From an uncultured Granulosicoccaceae bacterium (GTDB lineage Bacteria; Pseudomonadota; Gammaproteobacteria; Granulosicoccales; Granulosicoccaceae): a stretch of 64,000 bases of DNA. Location: positions 1 through 64,000 of the forward strand of contig CALFCF010000042.1 in the NCBI GenBank assembly GCA_937951345.1, in the 5' to 3' direction. The notes below the pieces were generated by a model that worked only from the letters and a program-made list of their open reading frames with translations, searched no databases and was not told the origin of the DNA. The position numbers and the translations under genes are program-made. Of the stretch, positions 11,181 to 16,132 are shown in pieces (position 1 is the first letter of the stretch; every line of letters starts with the position of its first letter).

Positions 11181-11507
11181 TCTTACGGAAGGTTTCAGAA
11201 TTGTTCGATCTTAAATTATCTCAGTTCAACTCAAACCGAACAAAGCATCGTAGAGCTGAATTAGCCAACAGGCACACTAATCTTTCGTTTATTAGCACTA
11301 AATACGCTGATGATGTAAGTTATATCAAATATTTGTGAAACTTAAATGCGTAGATTTTTTAGAAATTCTACGGCATGCACACTTACAGGCTATTAGGTTG
11401 AAATTGATAGACCTATTTGTCTGATAATTCTTAATTTTGACTTTCGTTTGGAATCTAGAATGAGCTCAGCGCACTTGCAGTTGGTTAGTATATTGAATCT
11501 ACAGAGC

Positions 11508-12035
11508 ATGCGAATTAAAGCTCTAATTCTTGTAGTTTTCAGCTGTATTAGTGTAAACATCGTAGCTGAAGATTCTGCAATCTTGCTAGAAGGCAACGAC
11601 GCGCGAGAGCTGGTGGAAAAGCTCGGACTTCCAACAGAGATCGCTATCAAAAGGGAAACACTTGCCTTGACCGCTTGGCGTACATTTGAAAATAAATTAC
11701 AACCTTTGTCAGCGGATGAATCTTGCAAAATCACACGTCGAATCAATGACATCATGAAAAATGGTACGCCTAAAACGCGTAAAAGAATAATGGATCTGCA
11801 AATAAAACCGATACTATCTATTGAAAAATGTGAGGAGAATTATGCAAACCTCCATAATGAATGTATACGATTAATAAAAGAATTTTACATTCATCACTAT
11901 ATTCATGACACGATTAATCAATCGACAGTAATTGAGACCTTTGTAAGATACACAAGGTTTTGCCCGACATGGAAAATGTTAGGAATTGAAACTGATGCAT
12001 TTAAAATGCATGAAATTTTAACTAACGCCAAATAA
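11508..12035 (+). CDS. Hypothetical secreted protein (putative first gene cassette)
   Basis: A 175-residue protein of unknown function. Starting at ATG 11508 gives a signal peptide MRIKALILVVFSCISVNIVA followed by a mostly helical, Lys-rich mature part with four Cys. A longer reading from 11448 would put 20 residues ahead of the signal and is less likely. Its base composition is clearly AT-richer than the kinase gene before it. An attC-like site begins 49 bp after the stop, so it looks like the cargo of an integron cassette. Confidence 0.55.
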   Translation: MRIKALILVVFSCISVNIVAEDSAILLEGNDARELVEKLGLPTEIAIKRETLALTAWRTFENKLQPLSADESCKITRRINDIMKNGTPKTRKRIMDLQIKPILSIEKCEENYANLHNECIRLIKEFYIHHYIHDTINQSTVIETFVRYTRFCPTWKMLGIETDAFKMHEILTNAK

Positions 12036-12083
12036 AGCCTATTGAGGCTTAGAGGAATTATAATCAATGTTTCTCATGCTTAA

Positions 12084-12186
12084 ACCTAACAAGTGGCATC
12101 AGCCGGACAACTTGCACCAGCCCACTAACCTGGGCTTCGCCCAGATCCGCAGTCTGGCGCAATTGTCGCTGTGCTAAGCGTTATTC
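12084..12186 (+). other. attC-like recombination site (cassette site 1)
   Basis: The 103-bp site begins with ACCTAAC (12084-12090, exact fit to RYYYAAC) and ends with GCGTTATTC (R'-like, core GTT at 12180-12182). The arms are largely complementary: AAGTGGCATCAGC-GGACAACTTG against CAATTGTCGCTGTGCTAAGCG. The centre contains a perfect hairpin CTGGGC-TTC-GCCCAG (12130-12144). This is the architecture of an integron 59-base element folded on the bottom strand. Confidence 0.75.
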
Positions 12187-12248
12187 GCTTAAAAGCATGC
12201 CTTAGAACTGAACTATCTTGATGGATCGAATTTTTTAGAGATCTGAAC

Positions 12249-12371
12249 ATGGCAAAAGAACGTTCGCACATGACTGGGTCTGGCGCACAGTCGGATGAGG
12301 ACACAATGGTGCCCGCGTTATTCGCTCCATGGGCAGCTTTGCTTTTGAATCGTGCCCAAATAAAATCATGA
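12249..12371 (+). CDS. Possible 40-residue micro-ORF
   Basis: A 40-codon frame (begins MAKERSHMTG, ends LLLNRAQIKS) lies between the first attC-like site and the acetyltransferase. No family is recognised and no strong ribosome-binding site is seen. It covers a second GCGTTATTCGCT (12315-12326) identical to the one closing site 1, so this stretch may instead be a collapsed cassette remnant. Confidence 0.2.
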   Translation: MAKERSHMTGSGAQSDEDTMVPALFAPWAALLLNRAQIKS

Positions 12372-12381
12372 TAGGAAAAGT

Positions 12382-12843
12382 ATGGAAATTAAATACGACA
12401 GTGCTTCACCGGAGGACATAGCGCCTATCGTCGATATGAAAATCGAGATGTTGAGTGAATTTGGTTACGACCAATATCTTCACGAGAATGCTCGAGAAAT
12501 TATTTTTGAAGACTACAATCGACTGTATGAGGCAAATCTGGCGACTCATTTTCTAGCAAAAACAGATAACCGAATTATCGGAATAGTAGGCGCTTTCATT
12601 AAATCCGATATCCCTTTTCGTTACTTCTCCAAAGGCCACTACGGATTTATTGGTGACGTATATACAATCCCAACTTATAGAAATCACGGCATTTCGATGA
12701 AACTCAACAAAGAGGCGCTAAGTTGGTTAAGAGATTATGGAGTAGGTTTTGTTCGACTACTTGCGTCCGATGCGGGTCGACCAATTTATGAACGACTAGG
12801 ATTCTCTCCTGATGTCGACATGGTATTAAATTTTGATAAATAA
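12382..12843 (+). CDS. GNAT-family N-acetyltransferase (cassette gene)
   Basis: A 153-residue GNAT protein. The acetyl-CoA site is visible as VYTIPTYRNHGISMKLNKEAL (about residues 93-113, a variant of the Q/RxxGxG/A loop), followed by the beta-bulge and C-terminal IYERLGFSPDVDMVLNF typical of the family. Substrate unknown; cassette-borne GNATs include antibiotic-modifying and small-molecule enzymes, but nothing here points to one. The stop codon falls at the left edge of the next attC-like site, the compact arrangement usual for gene cassettes. A GGAAAAG sequence precedes the ATG. Confidence 0.8.
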   Translation: MEIKYDSASPEDIAPIVDMKIEMLSEFGYDQYLHENAREIIFEDYNRLYEANLATHFLAKTDNRIIGIVGAFIKSDIPFRYFSKGHYGFIGDVYTIPTYRNHGISMKLNKEALSWLRDYGVGFVRLLASDAGRPIYERLGFSPDVDMVLNFDK

Positions 12844-12896
12844 AAGGCGCATGCTGTCGGTCGCGACAGAGAAGCACCACTGATGCGAGCGTTATG
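12842..12896 (+). other. attC-like recombination site (cassette site 2)
   Basis: A ~55-bp site between the two acetyltransferase genes. The left arm (TAAAAGGCGCATGC) mirrors the right arm (GATGCGAGCGTTATG, ending 12896), and an internal GTCGGTCGCGAC stem sits between. The R' core AGCGTTATG is at 12888-12896. The left R'' is degenerate, so the site may be weak. Confidence 0.55.
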
Positions 12897-12930
12897 AGCC
12901 CGAGTTACCCATGATAAGTGGAGTACCAGT

Positions 12931-13395
12931 TTGGATTTGATAATTCGTTCAGTAACATCACAAGACTTCGAGTCTATTGATAGTTTGTTAAGACAATTCG
13001 CTCTTGAAGAAGGTTTGCATCCAGATACTATAAAATTGGATGAATCGTCATTTCTGAAATACGGATTTGGTCCAGACAAATGCTTCTACTGTGATCTCGG
13101 CTCAGTGAACGGCAATGCTATCTCATACACCATGTATTCAATTAGATTCTCTGGAGTAGCAGGAATGCCAATACTCTACCTTGAGGACATATTTGTTTCT
13201 GCTGAGTATAGAAACCACGGGTTTGGAAAAATGTTAATGGATCATACAGTAAGCTTTGCTATAAAACATGACTGTTCACGTCTAGAGTGGGTTGTAGAAA
13301 GTAGAAATATATCTGCTCAAATGTTTTATAAGAATTTAGGTGCAGAACTAAGAAAAGACCTAATTGTATCTCGATTTGATATTGCAAATTCTTAG
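12931..13395 (+). CDS. GNAT-family N-acetyltransferase (cassette gene)
   Basis: A 154-residue GNAT protein with the acetyl-CoA loop EYRNHGFGKMLMDHTV (about residues 91-106) and the C-terminal RNISAQMFYKNLGAEL segment, resembling spermidine/diamine acetyltransferase-like GNATs. The start is TTG at 12931, chosen because a GGAG ribosome-binding site lies 8 bp upstream and no earlier ATG fits. It is flanked by attC-like sequences on both sides and is AT-rich like its neighbours. Substrate not determined. Confidence 0.8.
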   Translation: MDLIIRSVTSQDFESIDSLLRQFALEEGLHPDTIKLDESSFLKYGFGPDKCFYCDLGSVNGNAISYTMYSIRFSGVAGMPILYLEDIFVSAEYRNHGFGKMLMDHTVSFAIKHDCSRLEWVVESRNISAQMFYKNLGAELRKDLIVSRFDIANS

Positions 13396-13479
13396 GTGAC
13401 GAATACTCCAAATAAAAAGCAACTGCAACGAACAAGTTTCACTTCGCTACAAAACGTGGGTGCGCCACAACCTGCTGCA

Positions 13480-13511
13480 AAATCAACCCGCTGTTAATTC
13501 AGACGTTATGC
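13480..13511 (+). other. attC-like right half-site (cassette site 3)
   Basis: CGCTGTTAATTCAGACGTTATGC, read here as CGCTGTTAATTC (from 13489) then AGACGTTATGC (13501-13511), has the L'-spacer-R' pattern of attC sites. I could not find a convincing complementary left arm between 13396 and 13480, so it is either degenerate or a half-site. Confidence 0.4.
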
Positions 13512-13532
13512 AACTGAATCACAAACCTAATT

Positions 13533-13898
13533 ATGCTGAAAGCTCAATGTCATTGTGGCGATGTTAAACTAAGTACGCCAGATCTTCCTTCTGACATCAC
13601 TCGCTGCAATTGCTCCATTTGTAACCGTATAGGTGCTGTATGGGCATACTATCCAGCAAATACAGTAACAATTGAGGCTAAAGCTCTCTCCACCTATGAG
13701 TGGGGCCAAAAGACAATGCAATTCCATCGTTGCAATAAGTGTGGTTGCACCACGCACTACACCTCAGTCGAAGACAATGGTTACAAACAAATCGCAATCA
13801 ATACCAAAATGTCGGAACCCGATCAGATCAAGTCTATCCTTATCAGAGATTTCGATGGGGCTGATACGTGGCAATATTTAGATAGTAAAAATGCATAA
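13533..13898 (+). CDS. GFA-family (glutathione-dependent formaldehyde-activating-like) protein
   Basis: This 121-residue zinc protein has the GFA/CENP-V fold signature: CHCG near residue 6, TRCNCSICNR near residue 23, and HRCNKCGCTTHY near residue 65, giving two zinc sites. The family name comes from Gfa, but most members have no proven formaldehyde chemistry. It follows an R'-like attC end by 22 bp, and its stop lies in GCATAACAAG, which is an attC left end. This supports cassette status. GFA proteins are common integron cargo. Confidence 0.85.
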   Translation: MLKAQCHCGDVKLSTPDLPSDITRCNCSICNRIGAVWAYYPANTVTIEAKALSTYEWGQKTMQFHRCNKCGCTTHYTSVEDNGYKQIAINTKMSEPDQIKSILIRDFDGADTWQYLDSKNA

Positions 13899-13902
13899 CA
13901 AG
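13892..13902 (+). other. attC-like left half-site (cassette site 4)
   Basis: TGCATAACAAG has the R'' form of an attC site and contains the GFA stop codon. The matching right arm (a GTTATG-type core) is absent in the next 180 bp, so the array seems truncated here. Confidence 0.4.
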
Positions 13903-14076
13903 GTGTAGCGATTGCTCCCGTTGTTGCAGGCGTCAAACGTGATAAATAGCCTATGAGCTTTAAGCTCCAAGAAATGGCTTCTAAACAATTGAAGTCATAC
14001 CATGGACTGTGACAAGTAAGCAGAAAACAAGGTAAAAACGGGAAGTATTTTAGCTTCGACTTTGGTAGGAGTAACC

Positions 14077-14307
14077 ATGGCTTTTATGGTCTTAGGTAAG
14101 TTGTTCCAATCACATGGTTACATTTTTTTATGTAGTTCCTTCAGAATTATTGGTTGTTTGTCTTTGATGGTCATGTATGCAGACACTACGCTTTATCAAA
14201 GGAATACAGGTGAGGCATTTCCGCTGACTGAAGATGCGAGAATGTTCCATTTTTTAGCTAGCATAGACATCGGTTCGTTTATCTATGGAGAAAATGAGGT
14301 TAAATGA
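14077..14307 (+). CDS. Hypothetical small protein
   Basis: A 76-residue product with no recognised family. The ATG at 14077 is preferred because AGGAG (14067-14071) sits 5 bp ahead of it. Residues 15-35 are moderately hydrophobic (YIFLCSSFRIIGCLSLMVMY) and could be one membrane helix. It is AT-rich and lies at the right end of the cassette-like region. The 283 bp after it, up to 14590, show nothing recognisable. Confidence 0.4.
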   Translation: MAFMVLGKLFQSHGYIFLCSSFRIIGCLSLMVMYADTTLYQRNTGEAFPLTEDARMFHFLASIDIGSFIYGENEVK

Positions 14308-14590: not shown

Positions 14591-16132
14591 ATGACCCGCC
14601 CCAAAAGAGGCAACGCCCGCAAAGACAAGCACACAGTACGGCTGGCAGCTTCTAGCGGTACTCGCCTCGCTCGTGACACAACACTTAAATCCCCTTTTAA
14701 ACCGCTTTCAGAAAACGAACAGCTGGCGATTCACCGAGCATCACTTAGTATTCTGGAAACAACAGGTATGGCGAATGCCACACCACAAATCCTGGATGTC
14801 GCTCTAGCCAGCGGGTGTTGCATCAATGCAGACAATCGTCTTTGCTTCCCGGCGTCGCTGGTTGAAGATATCCTGACCAAAGCATGCAAGTCGTTTGTGG
14901 TGCATGCACGCAACGCTGATTACGACTTTGAAGCGAAAAGCGGACAAATCAATCTGTGTACTGGTGGTGCAGCGGTGTCGATGCTTGACCATACAACGCA
15001 AACCTACCGACCCAGTGCATTAACAGATCTATACGATCTGTCACGTCTTGCTGACACACTGGAGAACATTCAATGGTTTGCGCGCCCTGTAGTGGCGACT
15101 GATATTGCTGATATGTTTGCACTGGATGCAAACACAATAATAGCGAGCGCTGCCGGCACACAAAAACATATCGCTACCAGCATCTGCAACGGGGATTCTG
15201 CTGAAAAACTGTTACCACTACTCGATCTACTTGCCGGCGGAGACGGAAATTTCCGTAAACGGCCGTTTTGTACCGTACATGCAACGACGGTTGTATCACC
15301 GTTAACGTTTGCGCCAGATACATTGGATGTCGTTTGTCATGCCGTTAACATGGGCATGCCAATTCACAGCCAAACCGGGCCACAGGCAGGTGCAACCGCA
15401 CCCGCCGCACTAGCTGGCACACTGGTGCAATGTTGCGCTGAAGGTCTGGCGTCACTTTGCATCATTAATATGCTGCAACCCGGATACCCGGTTGTAATTG
15501 GCAACTGGGCATTTGTGTCAGATCTTCGTACCGGGGCATTCAGCGGCGGTGGGGGTGAACAGGCATTACTGGGAGCGGCATCTGGCCAGATGTCAAACTT
15601 CTACGGTATACCCGGCGGCATGGGTGCCGGTATGACAGACTCGAAATTGCCGGATATCCAGGCGGGTTTTGAAAAAGCCTATACGATGTTGCTGGCATCA
15701 CTTTCCGGTGGTGGGTTTATCTTTGAGTCTGCCGGTATGCTTGCCAGCTTATTGGGTTGTTCACTGCAGACAATGGTTATCGATAACGATATGCTGTCTT
15801 CCATCCGCCGTATAGCACGCGGCATTGAAGTCAACGACGACACCCTGTCGATTGATCTGATCAAAGAGACAGCAACCGGAGCCGGACACTATCTGGCTGC
15901 AGAGCAAACCATGGCGTTAATGGAAACCGAATTTCATTACCCGGAACTTGCAGACCGTGCCAGCCCGCAGGACTGGATGGATACCGGTTGCGTTACTATG
16001 TGGGATAAAGCCACGCTAAAAGTCGAACAGGTTTTGGCAGAACACCAACCCTGGTATATCGACAAGAAAACAGACCGACAACTGCGTGACTCTTTCCCTG
16101 TCTATCTTAAACAACCGAATAGCAGACCATGA
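14591..16132 (+). CDS. MttB-superfamily trimethylamine/glycine-betaine-type methyltransferase (non-pyrrolysine)
   Basis: A 513-residue TIM-barrel protein of the trimethylamine methyltransferase superfamily. Recognisable blocks are the N-terminal HRASLSILETTGM helix, CTGGAAVSMLD, PFCTVHATTVVSPLTF, and GIPGGMGAGMTDSKLPDIQAG. There is no internal amber codon, so it is a non-Pyl member like MtgB (glycine betaine) and related enzymes that pass a methyl group to a corrinoid protein. A basic 30-residue N-terminal extension precedes the domain. It overlaps the next FAD oxidoreductase by 4 bp (ATGA). No corrinoid protein gene is adjacent, so the methyl acceptor is unclear. Confidence 0.85.
   Translation: MTRPKRGNARKDKHTVRLAASSGTRLARDTTLKSPFKPLSENEQLAIHRASLSILETTGMANATPQILDVALASGCCINADNRLCFPASLVEDILTKACKSFVVHARNADYDFEAKSGQINLCTGGAAVSMLDHTTQTYRPSALTDLYDLSRLADTLENIQWFARPVVATDIADMFALDANTIIASAAGTQKHIATSICNGDSAEKLLPLLDLLAGGDGNFRKRPFCTVHATTVVSPLTFAPDTLDVVCHAVNMGMPIHSQTGPQAGATAPAALAGTLVQCCAEGLASLCIINMLQPGYPVVIGNWAFVSDLRTGAFSGGGGEQALLGAASGQMSNFYGIPGGMGAGMTDSKLPDIQAGFEKAYTMLLASLSGGGFIFESAGMLASLLGCSLQTMVIDNDMLSSIRRIARGIEVNDDTLSIDLIKETATGAGHYLAAEQTMALMETEFHYPELADRASPQDWMDTGCVTMWDKATLKVEQVLAEHQPWYIDKKTDRQLRDSFPVYLKQPNSRP

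Follow-up and report, generated by a model that had tools for sequence, protein, structure and literature searches.

A cassette array headed by an orphan attI copy points to a probable multi-platform integron in an uncultured Granulosicoccaceae bacterium

Between conserved genes of an uncultured Granulosicoccaceae bacterium lies a short array of integron gene cassettes that is headed by a copy of the attachment site attI and has no integrase gene beside it. The window analysed here comprises bases 1-64,000 of contig C42 (108 kb), from a genome of 4.49 Mb in 115 contigs that is 95.5% complete. This genome is labelled G000, related genomes are given as G002, G016 and so on, and C followed by a number denotes a contig. 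A previous inspection of the letters alone (the sequence-only reading) had described an integrase-less cassette array between housekeeping genes, that is, a CALIN (cluster of attC sites lacking an integron integrase). The locus contains the following elements.

11256-11395, + strand: attI-like copy (orphan attI), 140 bp, ending at the cassette crossover between 11392 and 11393
11275-11291, + strand: left core of the attI copy, CACTAATCTTTCGTTTA, simple-site-like, 105 bp from the right core
11380-11395, + strand: right core and crossover of the attI copy, CACTTACAGGCTATTA, with two substitutions including crossover G to A
11393-12180, + strand: cassette 1; its start TTAGGT pairs with its own R'' ACCTAAC (12084-12090), the single mismatch being the mutated crossover base
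11508-12035, + strand: cassette 1 gene, 175 aa, no family; alternative upstream TTG start at 11448
12084-12186, + strand: attC 1, well formed; R'' 12084-12090, R' 12180-12186
12181-12891, + strand: cassette 2, with an additional GCGTTATTCGCT at 12317-12328
12382-12843, + strand: cassette 2 gene, GNAT acetyltransferase, 153 aa (PF00583, E=3.4e-13)
12838-12897, + strand: attC 2, short and decayed; AAC of R'' changed to AAA
12892-13505, + strand: cassette 3, bounded by GCG/TTATGAG and GACG/TTATGC (slash, cassette boundary)
12931-13395, + strand: cassette 3 gene, GNAT acetyltransferase, 154 aa (PF00583, E=1.2e-14)
13410-13511, + strand: attC 3, decayed; R'' without the C of AAC
13506-13899, + strand: cassette 4, right end lost; its start GTTATGC is the exact complement of R'' GCATAAC (13893-13899)
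13533-13898, + strand: cassette 4 gene, GFA / aldehyde-activating family, 121 aa (PF04828, E=2.2e-9)
13893-13903, + strand: attC 4, truncated, left half (R'' end), with the stop codon inside R''; read from the sequence

Five AT-rich cassette genes in one orientation had been proposed. The open reading frames of the four genes listed (the first as 11448/11508-12035) and a fifth at 14062-14307 indeed all lie on the + strand, and G+C content is 38-42% over 11.0-14.6 kb versus 50-53% in the flanking genes. The fifth frame (81 aa, no family match) has no attC after it, so nothing marks it as a cassette. Genes 1-3 are each followed by an attC site and gene 4 by a half site, all in one orientation, and only in genes 2 and 4 does the stop codon merge with the left end of a site. 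Typical cassette cargo includes GNAT and GFA genes. The cassette 1 gene gave zero matches in Pfam or NCBIfam and zero plasmid homologues, while none of the plasmid homologues of the remaining cassette genes reaches 60% identity; in GTDB, no close relative of the GFA gene was confirmed. The additional GCGTTATTCGCT in cassette 2 is a direct repeat of the attC 1/cassette 2 junction (12178-12189) and may be a relict junction, possibly the end of a lost small cassette.

The attC sites were evaluated with two covariance models: R1, built from 24 attC sites of the related genomes' integrons and contig C6 with zero window sequence, and R3, built from 49 hits, all outside the window. These replaced the first version of a simple R''/R' pairing scan, which found nothing because attC stems have extrahelical bases and R' is contributed by the next cassette. 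The well-formed site that had been predicted at 12084-12186 scored 40.3 bits with R1 (E=6e-8 in the window, E=4.2e-6 across the whole genome) and 48.4 bits with R3, and it is 84% identical over 80 bp to an attC at C14:57030-57110. The shorter site proposed at 12842-12896 was recovered as the decayed attC 2, with 12.2 bits (R1; E=0.048, 4 kb, filters off). Two half-sites had also been suggested. The one at 13892-13902 stands as the truncated attC 4, which gave no full-length model match at 13893 (R1, 4 kb, filters off), whereas the one at 13480-13511 turned out to belong to a longer decayed site, attC 3, scoring 18.7 bits with R3 (E=0.048, runner-up in the entire 64 kb) and 5.5 bits with R1 (4 kb, filters off). 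The array thus contains one strong site (E=4.2e-6) and two weak ones (E about 0.05) by R1 and R3, which are not the models of IntegronFinder; the IntegronFinder 2 default for a CALIN is at least two attC sites. An Rfam search gave no match within the array. Judged by its sequence, the array is real and partly decayed. Genome-wide, R3 detected 13 sites on five contigs, with clusters at C6, C14 (57 kb and 70 kb), C42, C19 and C37, and the genome has at least five cassette clusters besides the window array. Two of the clusters are cut at upstream contig ends, namely C37 (L101 652-710 and 1162-1278) and C14:70027-70147 (L100 8027-8147).

The reported absence of an integrase gene from the window extends to the whole of C42 in a search with TIGR02249, so that no functional intI adjoins the attI copy there. 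Genome-wide, the same search found a single, broken intI on C108, XerC/D-like recombinases on C34 and C80 and a fragment on C103; this broken gene and the attC clusters at C6, C14, C19 and C37 are what the suggested search for an integrase and matching sites elsewhere brought to light. Compared with intact relatives, the C108 gene is in frame to YGSGLRISECLRL; about 75 residues are then missing before it continues in a different frame at GWAFLFPAS, with the motifs RHSFATHL and YTHV retained after the frameshift. In integron integrases the missing stretch is where the catalytic lysine and the integron-specific insertion are located. C6 and C108 begin with 141 bases that are exact reverse complements of each other, probably an assembler k-mer overlap. 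Since C108 opens with intI reading away from this overlap, C6 holds the attI and cassettes of that integron.

When the array was used to search its own genome, 138 bp (window 11258-11395) recurred at C6:148-285 (80% identity) and C19:22591-22728 (77%). A profile of this repeat found exactly four copies in the genome, on C6, C19, C42 and C14 (window copy, E=2.6e-34), and zero in 39 other genomes; the exact attI pattern had zero matches in 84,980 GTDB genomes and in viral contigs. The C6 copy lies upstream of the intI pseudogene and shows what defines an attI: a core with a GTT crossover, an adjoining intI and cassettes joined at the crossover. The window, C19 and C14 copies have no integrase nearby, and the window copy, 80% identical to that of C6, is away from intI and carries the crossover change G to A. 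The attI copy contains two cores of common layout, CACTAAN6GTT, 105 bp apart. The left-core sequence CTAATCTTTCGTTTA is identical in the C6, window and C14 copies, and the right core reads CACTAACAGGCTGTTA in C6, C19 and C14 and CACTTACAGGCTATTA in the window. The window and C19 copies have a common left end (CTGAATTA/CAGAATTA). Only 75 bp separate the window copy from the stop codon of the preceding sensor kinase gene; the other copies have upstream open reading frames. The description as an integrase-less cassette array is supported but was incomplete, having missed the attI copy at 11256-11395.

The R'' box of a cassette complements the cassette's own first bases, both deriving from one attC in the circular form. 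Behind the attI copies, the first cassette shows 0 mismatches of 7 at C6, 0 at C19, 1 at C14 and 1 in the window, the last at the mutated crossover base. When the first cassettes behind three attI copies of relatives (G016 C7, G016 C32 and G061 C10) were added, the total was 3 mismatches against a permuted mean of 13.0, and 2 of 5040 partner permutations matched or beat it. The cores are also conserved out of proportion to the rest of the copies: between C6 and C14 they are identical at 31/31 positions versus 52/110 (47%) of other columns (Fisher 4e-9), and between window and C14 at 29/31 versus 46/110. This pattern suggests, as its simplest reading, that the copies diverged while the integrase still used them, i.e. 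in trans, and we infer that a single IntI lineage served all four. Mutations in the crossover base and in the R'' boxes of attC 2 and attC 3 make it probable that the window platform itself is dead.

Comparison with related genomes disposed of a further possibility, a fixed operon conserved without cassettes. The sibling G002 aligns through the sensor kinase (89% identity) to 11172, just short of the stop codon, and continues with an unrelated glucanase-like gene; the repeat profile found no attI copy in it. For the gene of cassette 3, the second GNAT, the closest homologue among 71 relatives is 30% identical and there is otherwise none. On the other side of the array, an open gene for a 513-aa MttB-family protein (14591-16132) contains a match above threshold to Rfam PYLIS_3, the pyrrolysine insertion element of mttB, at 15632-15731; it has no internal stop and probably encodes a non-pyrrolysine MttB homologue.

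To survey recurrence, the intI-attI intergenic sequences of 17 intI-bearing genomes were searched within their own genomes. Copies distant from intI and internal to contigs were found at G016:C7 and G016:C32 (88-90% identity) and at G061:C10:164821 (84-87%, 198 kb from its own intI). Further copies of this kind lie at G029:C91 (91%, 68 bp), G026:C132 (84%) and G027:C137 (72%, with an attC of 83 bits downstream). The two intI-less copies of G016 and that of G061 are each followed by a verified cassette, and several of the relatives' copies stop exactly at the crossover. Those 88-94% identical to the intI-linked attI have sharp left ends and unrelated left flanks, and at such identity these ends are real breakpoints rather than mere divergence; their coincidence with GTT crossovers was true of G016 only. 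These observations suggest that sharp-ended attI copies are recurrent in this family and class.

Several other matches were set aside. The candidate at G038:C109 was a shared first cassette, and those at G030:C47, G030:C1, G029:C6 and G026:C176 are contig-end matches, maybe assembly overlaps or allelic copies. At G062:C40 (L148 ~1501-1708), a 64-bp copy of the sequence upstream of intI (94%) ends at the crossover; its direct repeat, GGAATGCTTATGGACAC, is found several more times in the vicinity, in either orientation, and with no attC downstream this copy was treated as doubtful. In about ten relatives (L017-L028) the contig bearing intI stops within 30-330 bp upstream of that gene, a pattern that repeated attI regions would produce by breaking short-read assemblies. 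At a contig end, G068:C60 (L112 1396-1506) has a truncated intI N-terminus next to an attI copy, which makes it a second, decayed integron of that genome.

Taken together, these data lead us to favour, with a probability of roughly 0.7, an orphan integron platform within a multi-platform integron, in which one integrase loaded four attI copies in trans. The window locus would be an attI copy with four captured cassettes and no integrase gene of its own, and the single integrase gene, now the C108 pseudogene joined to C6, would have loaded cassettes at the four scattered copies. The attI could have travelled by being taken up into a mobile cassette-like circle, in the manner of the published deltaattI-type cassettes, or a once complete integron could have broken up; a deltaattI-type cassette inserted at an attG site might plant a new attI. 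Several points weigh against this scheme. No recombination has been observed. The draft is fragmented (115 contigs, 95.5% complete), and an intact intI may be absent from the assembly. The cores were chosen post hoc, the left one having been seen after alignment, although the right one was preset by integron logic. The C37 and C14-end clusters are truncated upstream, so an attI head cannot be shown for them. Finally, the extra attI copy in G068 keeps an intI remnant, and simple loss of intI therefore explains that copy.

The same G068 copy shows that the route required by the chief competing account does occur. According to that account the array is a plain CALIN formed by decay: four complete integrons of one lineage, with intI deleted at three and attI plus cassettes remaining. 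CALINs are commonly regarded as degraded integrons (PMC9024848), and the genome's own intI is broken. Yet no remnant of intI is found at the window, C19 or C14 copies, the left end common to the window and C19 copies (CTGAATTA/CAGAATTA) looks like the result of copying as a unit, and the relatives' copies at 88-94% identity have unrelated left flanks, all of which make decay an unlikely, if serious, contender. Single cassettes might instead have been inserted at non-classical attG sites, attI being uninvolved; according to the summaries in PMC12444791 and PMC12901181, such insertion is experimentally established (Loot et al. 2024) and yields scattered CALINs. We consider this improbable here: a 140-bp attI copy, not ordinary genomic DNA, exactly heads the array and the first cassette begins at its crossover, likewise at C19 and C14. 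That the locus is an ordinary AT-rich island with small genes and palindromes that arose by chance, and the 140-bp repeat unrelated intergenic sequence, would suit the individual weakness of sites 2-4. It deserves hardly any credence and is refuted by attC 1 (E=4.2e-6 genome-wide), by the complementarity of cassette starts with R'', and by the existence of exactly four repeats that all head cassette arrays, one of them beside intI.

Several CALINs per genome are known from Shewanella (PMC9229058) and Xanthomonas (PMC12444791), and this genome likewise has several clusters. The window cassettes resemble surveyed CALINs (also PMC9024848) in their single orientation, their attC sites and the lack of a nearby intI, and the array is chromosomal, small and partly decayed; it differs in having only one strong attC and in being headed by an attI copy, which we did not find reported there. 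One precedent is on record, the Shewanella prophage M16-3 with an integron and an attI-headed CALIN (PMC9892861), whose published attI, GCATGCGCACTAATAAAATGTT, is resembled by the right core GCATGCACACTAACAGGCTGTT here. M16-3 has two sites in one prophage with an intact IntI, whereas here four sites are scattered over the chromosome, intI is broken and the attI copies have diverged with their cores conserved. The deltaattI-type cassettes of class 1 and 2 integrons carry an attI of variable length that ends at the crossover and is recombined by IntI1 (PMC12901181). The fixed right end and variable left end of the present copies are similar, and such cassettes are a possible vehicle for attI; in those cassettes, within a mobile integron, a gene is followed by the attI piece instead of its attC, while here the piece heads a separate chromosomal array.

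A textbook integron pairs a single integrase with a single attI. Like a sedentary chromosomal integron, the present system has an attI, an attC family, GNAT and GFA cassettes and, at C108/C6, a divergent intI; unlike one, it has no intI at the window and a single integrase gene for four platforms. In the open-licence literature we found neither a chromosome with several attI-headed arrays nor such core conservation reported. CALINs and one attI-headed CALIN were known, and what appears new here is multiple attI-headed arrays that would form a multi-platform integron. IntegronFinder detects attI for class 1 only (PMC9024848), and attI-headed arrays would be systematically missed by software that ignores the site elsewhere. 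A broader proposal can be advanced tentatively and at somewhat less than even odds: integron attI sites may disperse through chromosomes as mobile docking sites, letting one IntI serve several platforms, and many CALINs at present classed as decayed or attG-derived would be attI-headed satellites overlooked because attI is unannotated outside class 1. If attI copies seed separate arrays, the origin of a CALIN would be directly testable through the attI copy at its head, and a genome could expose several first positions at once.
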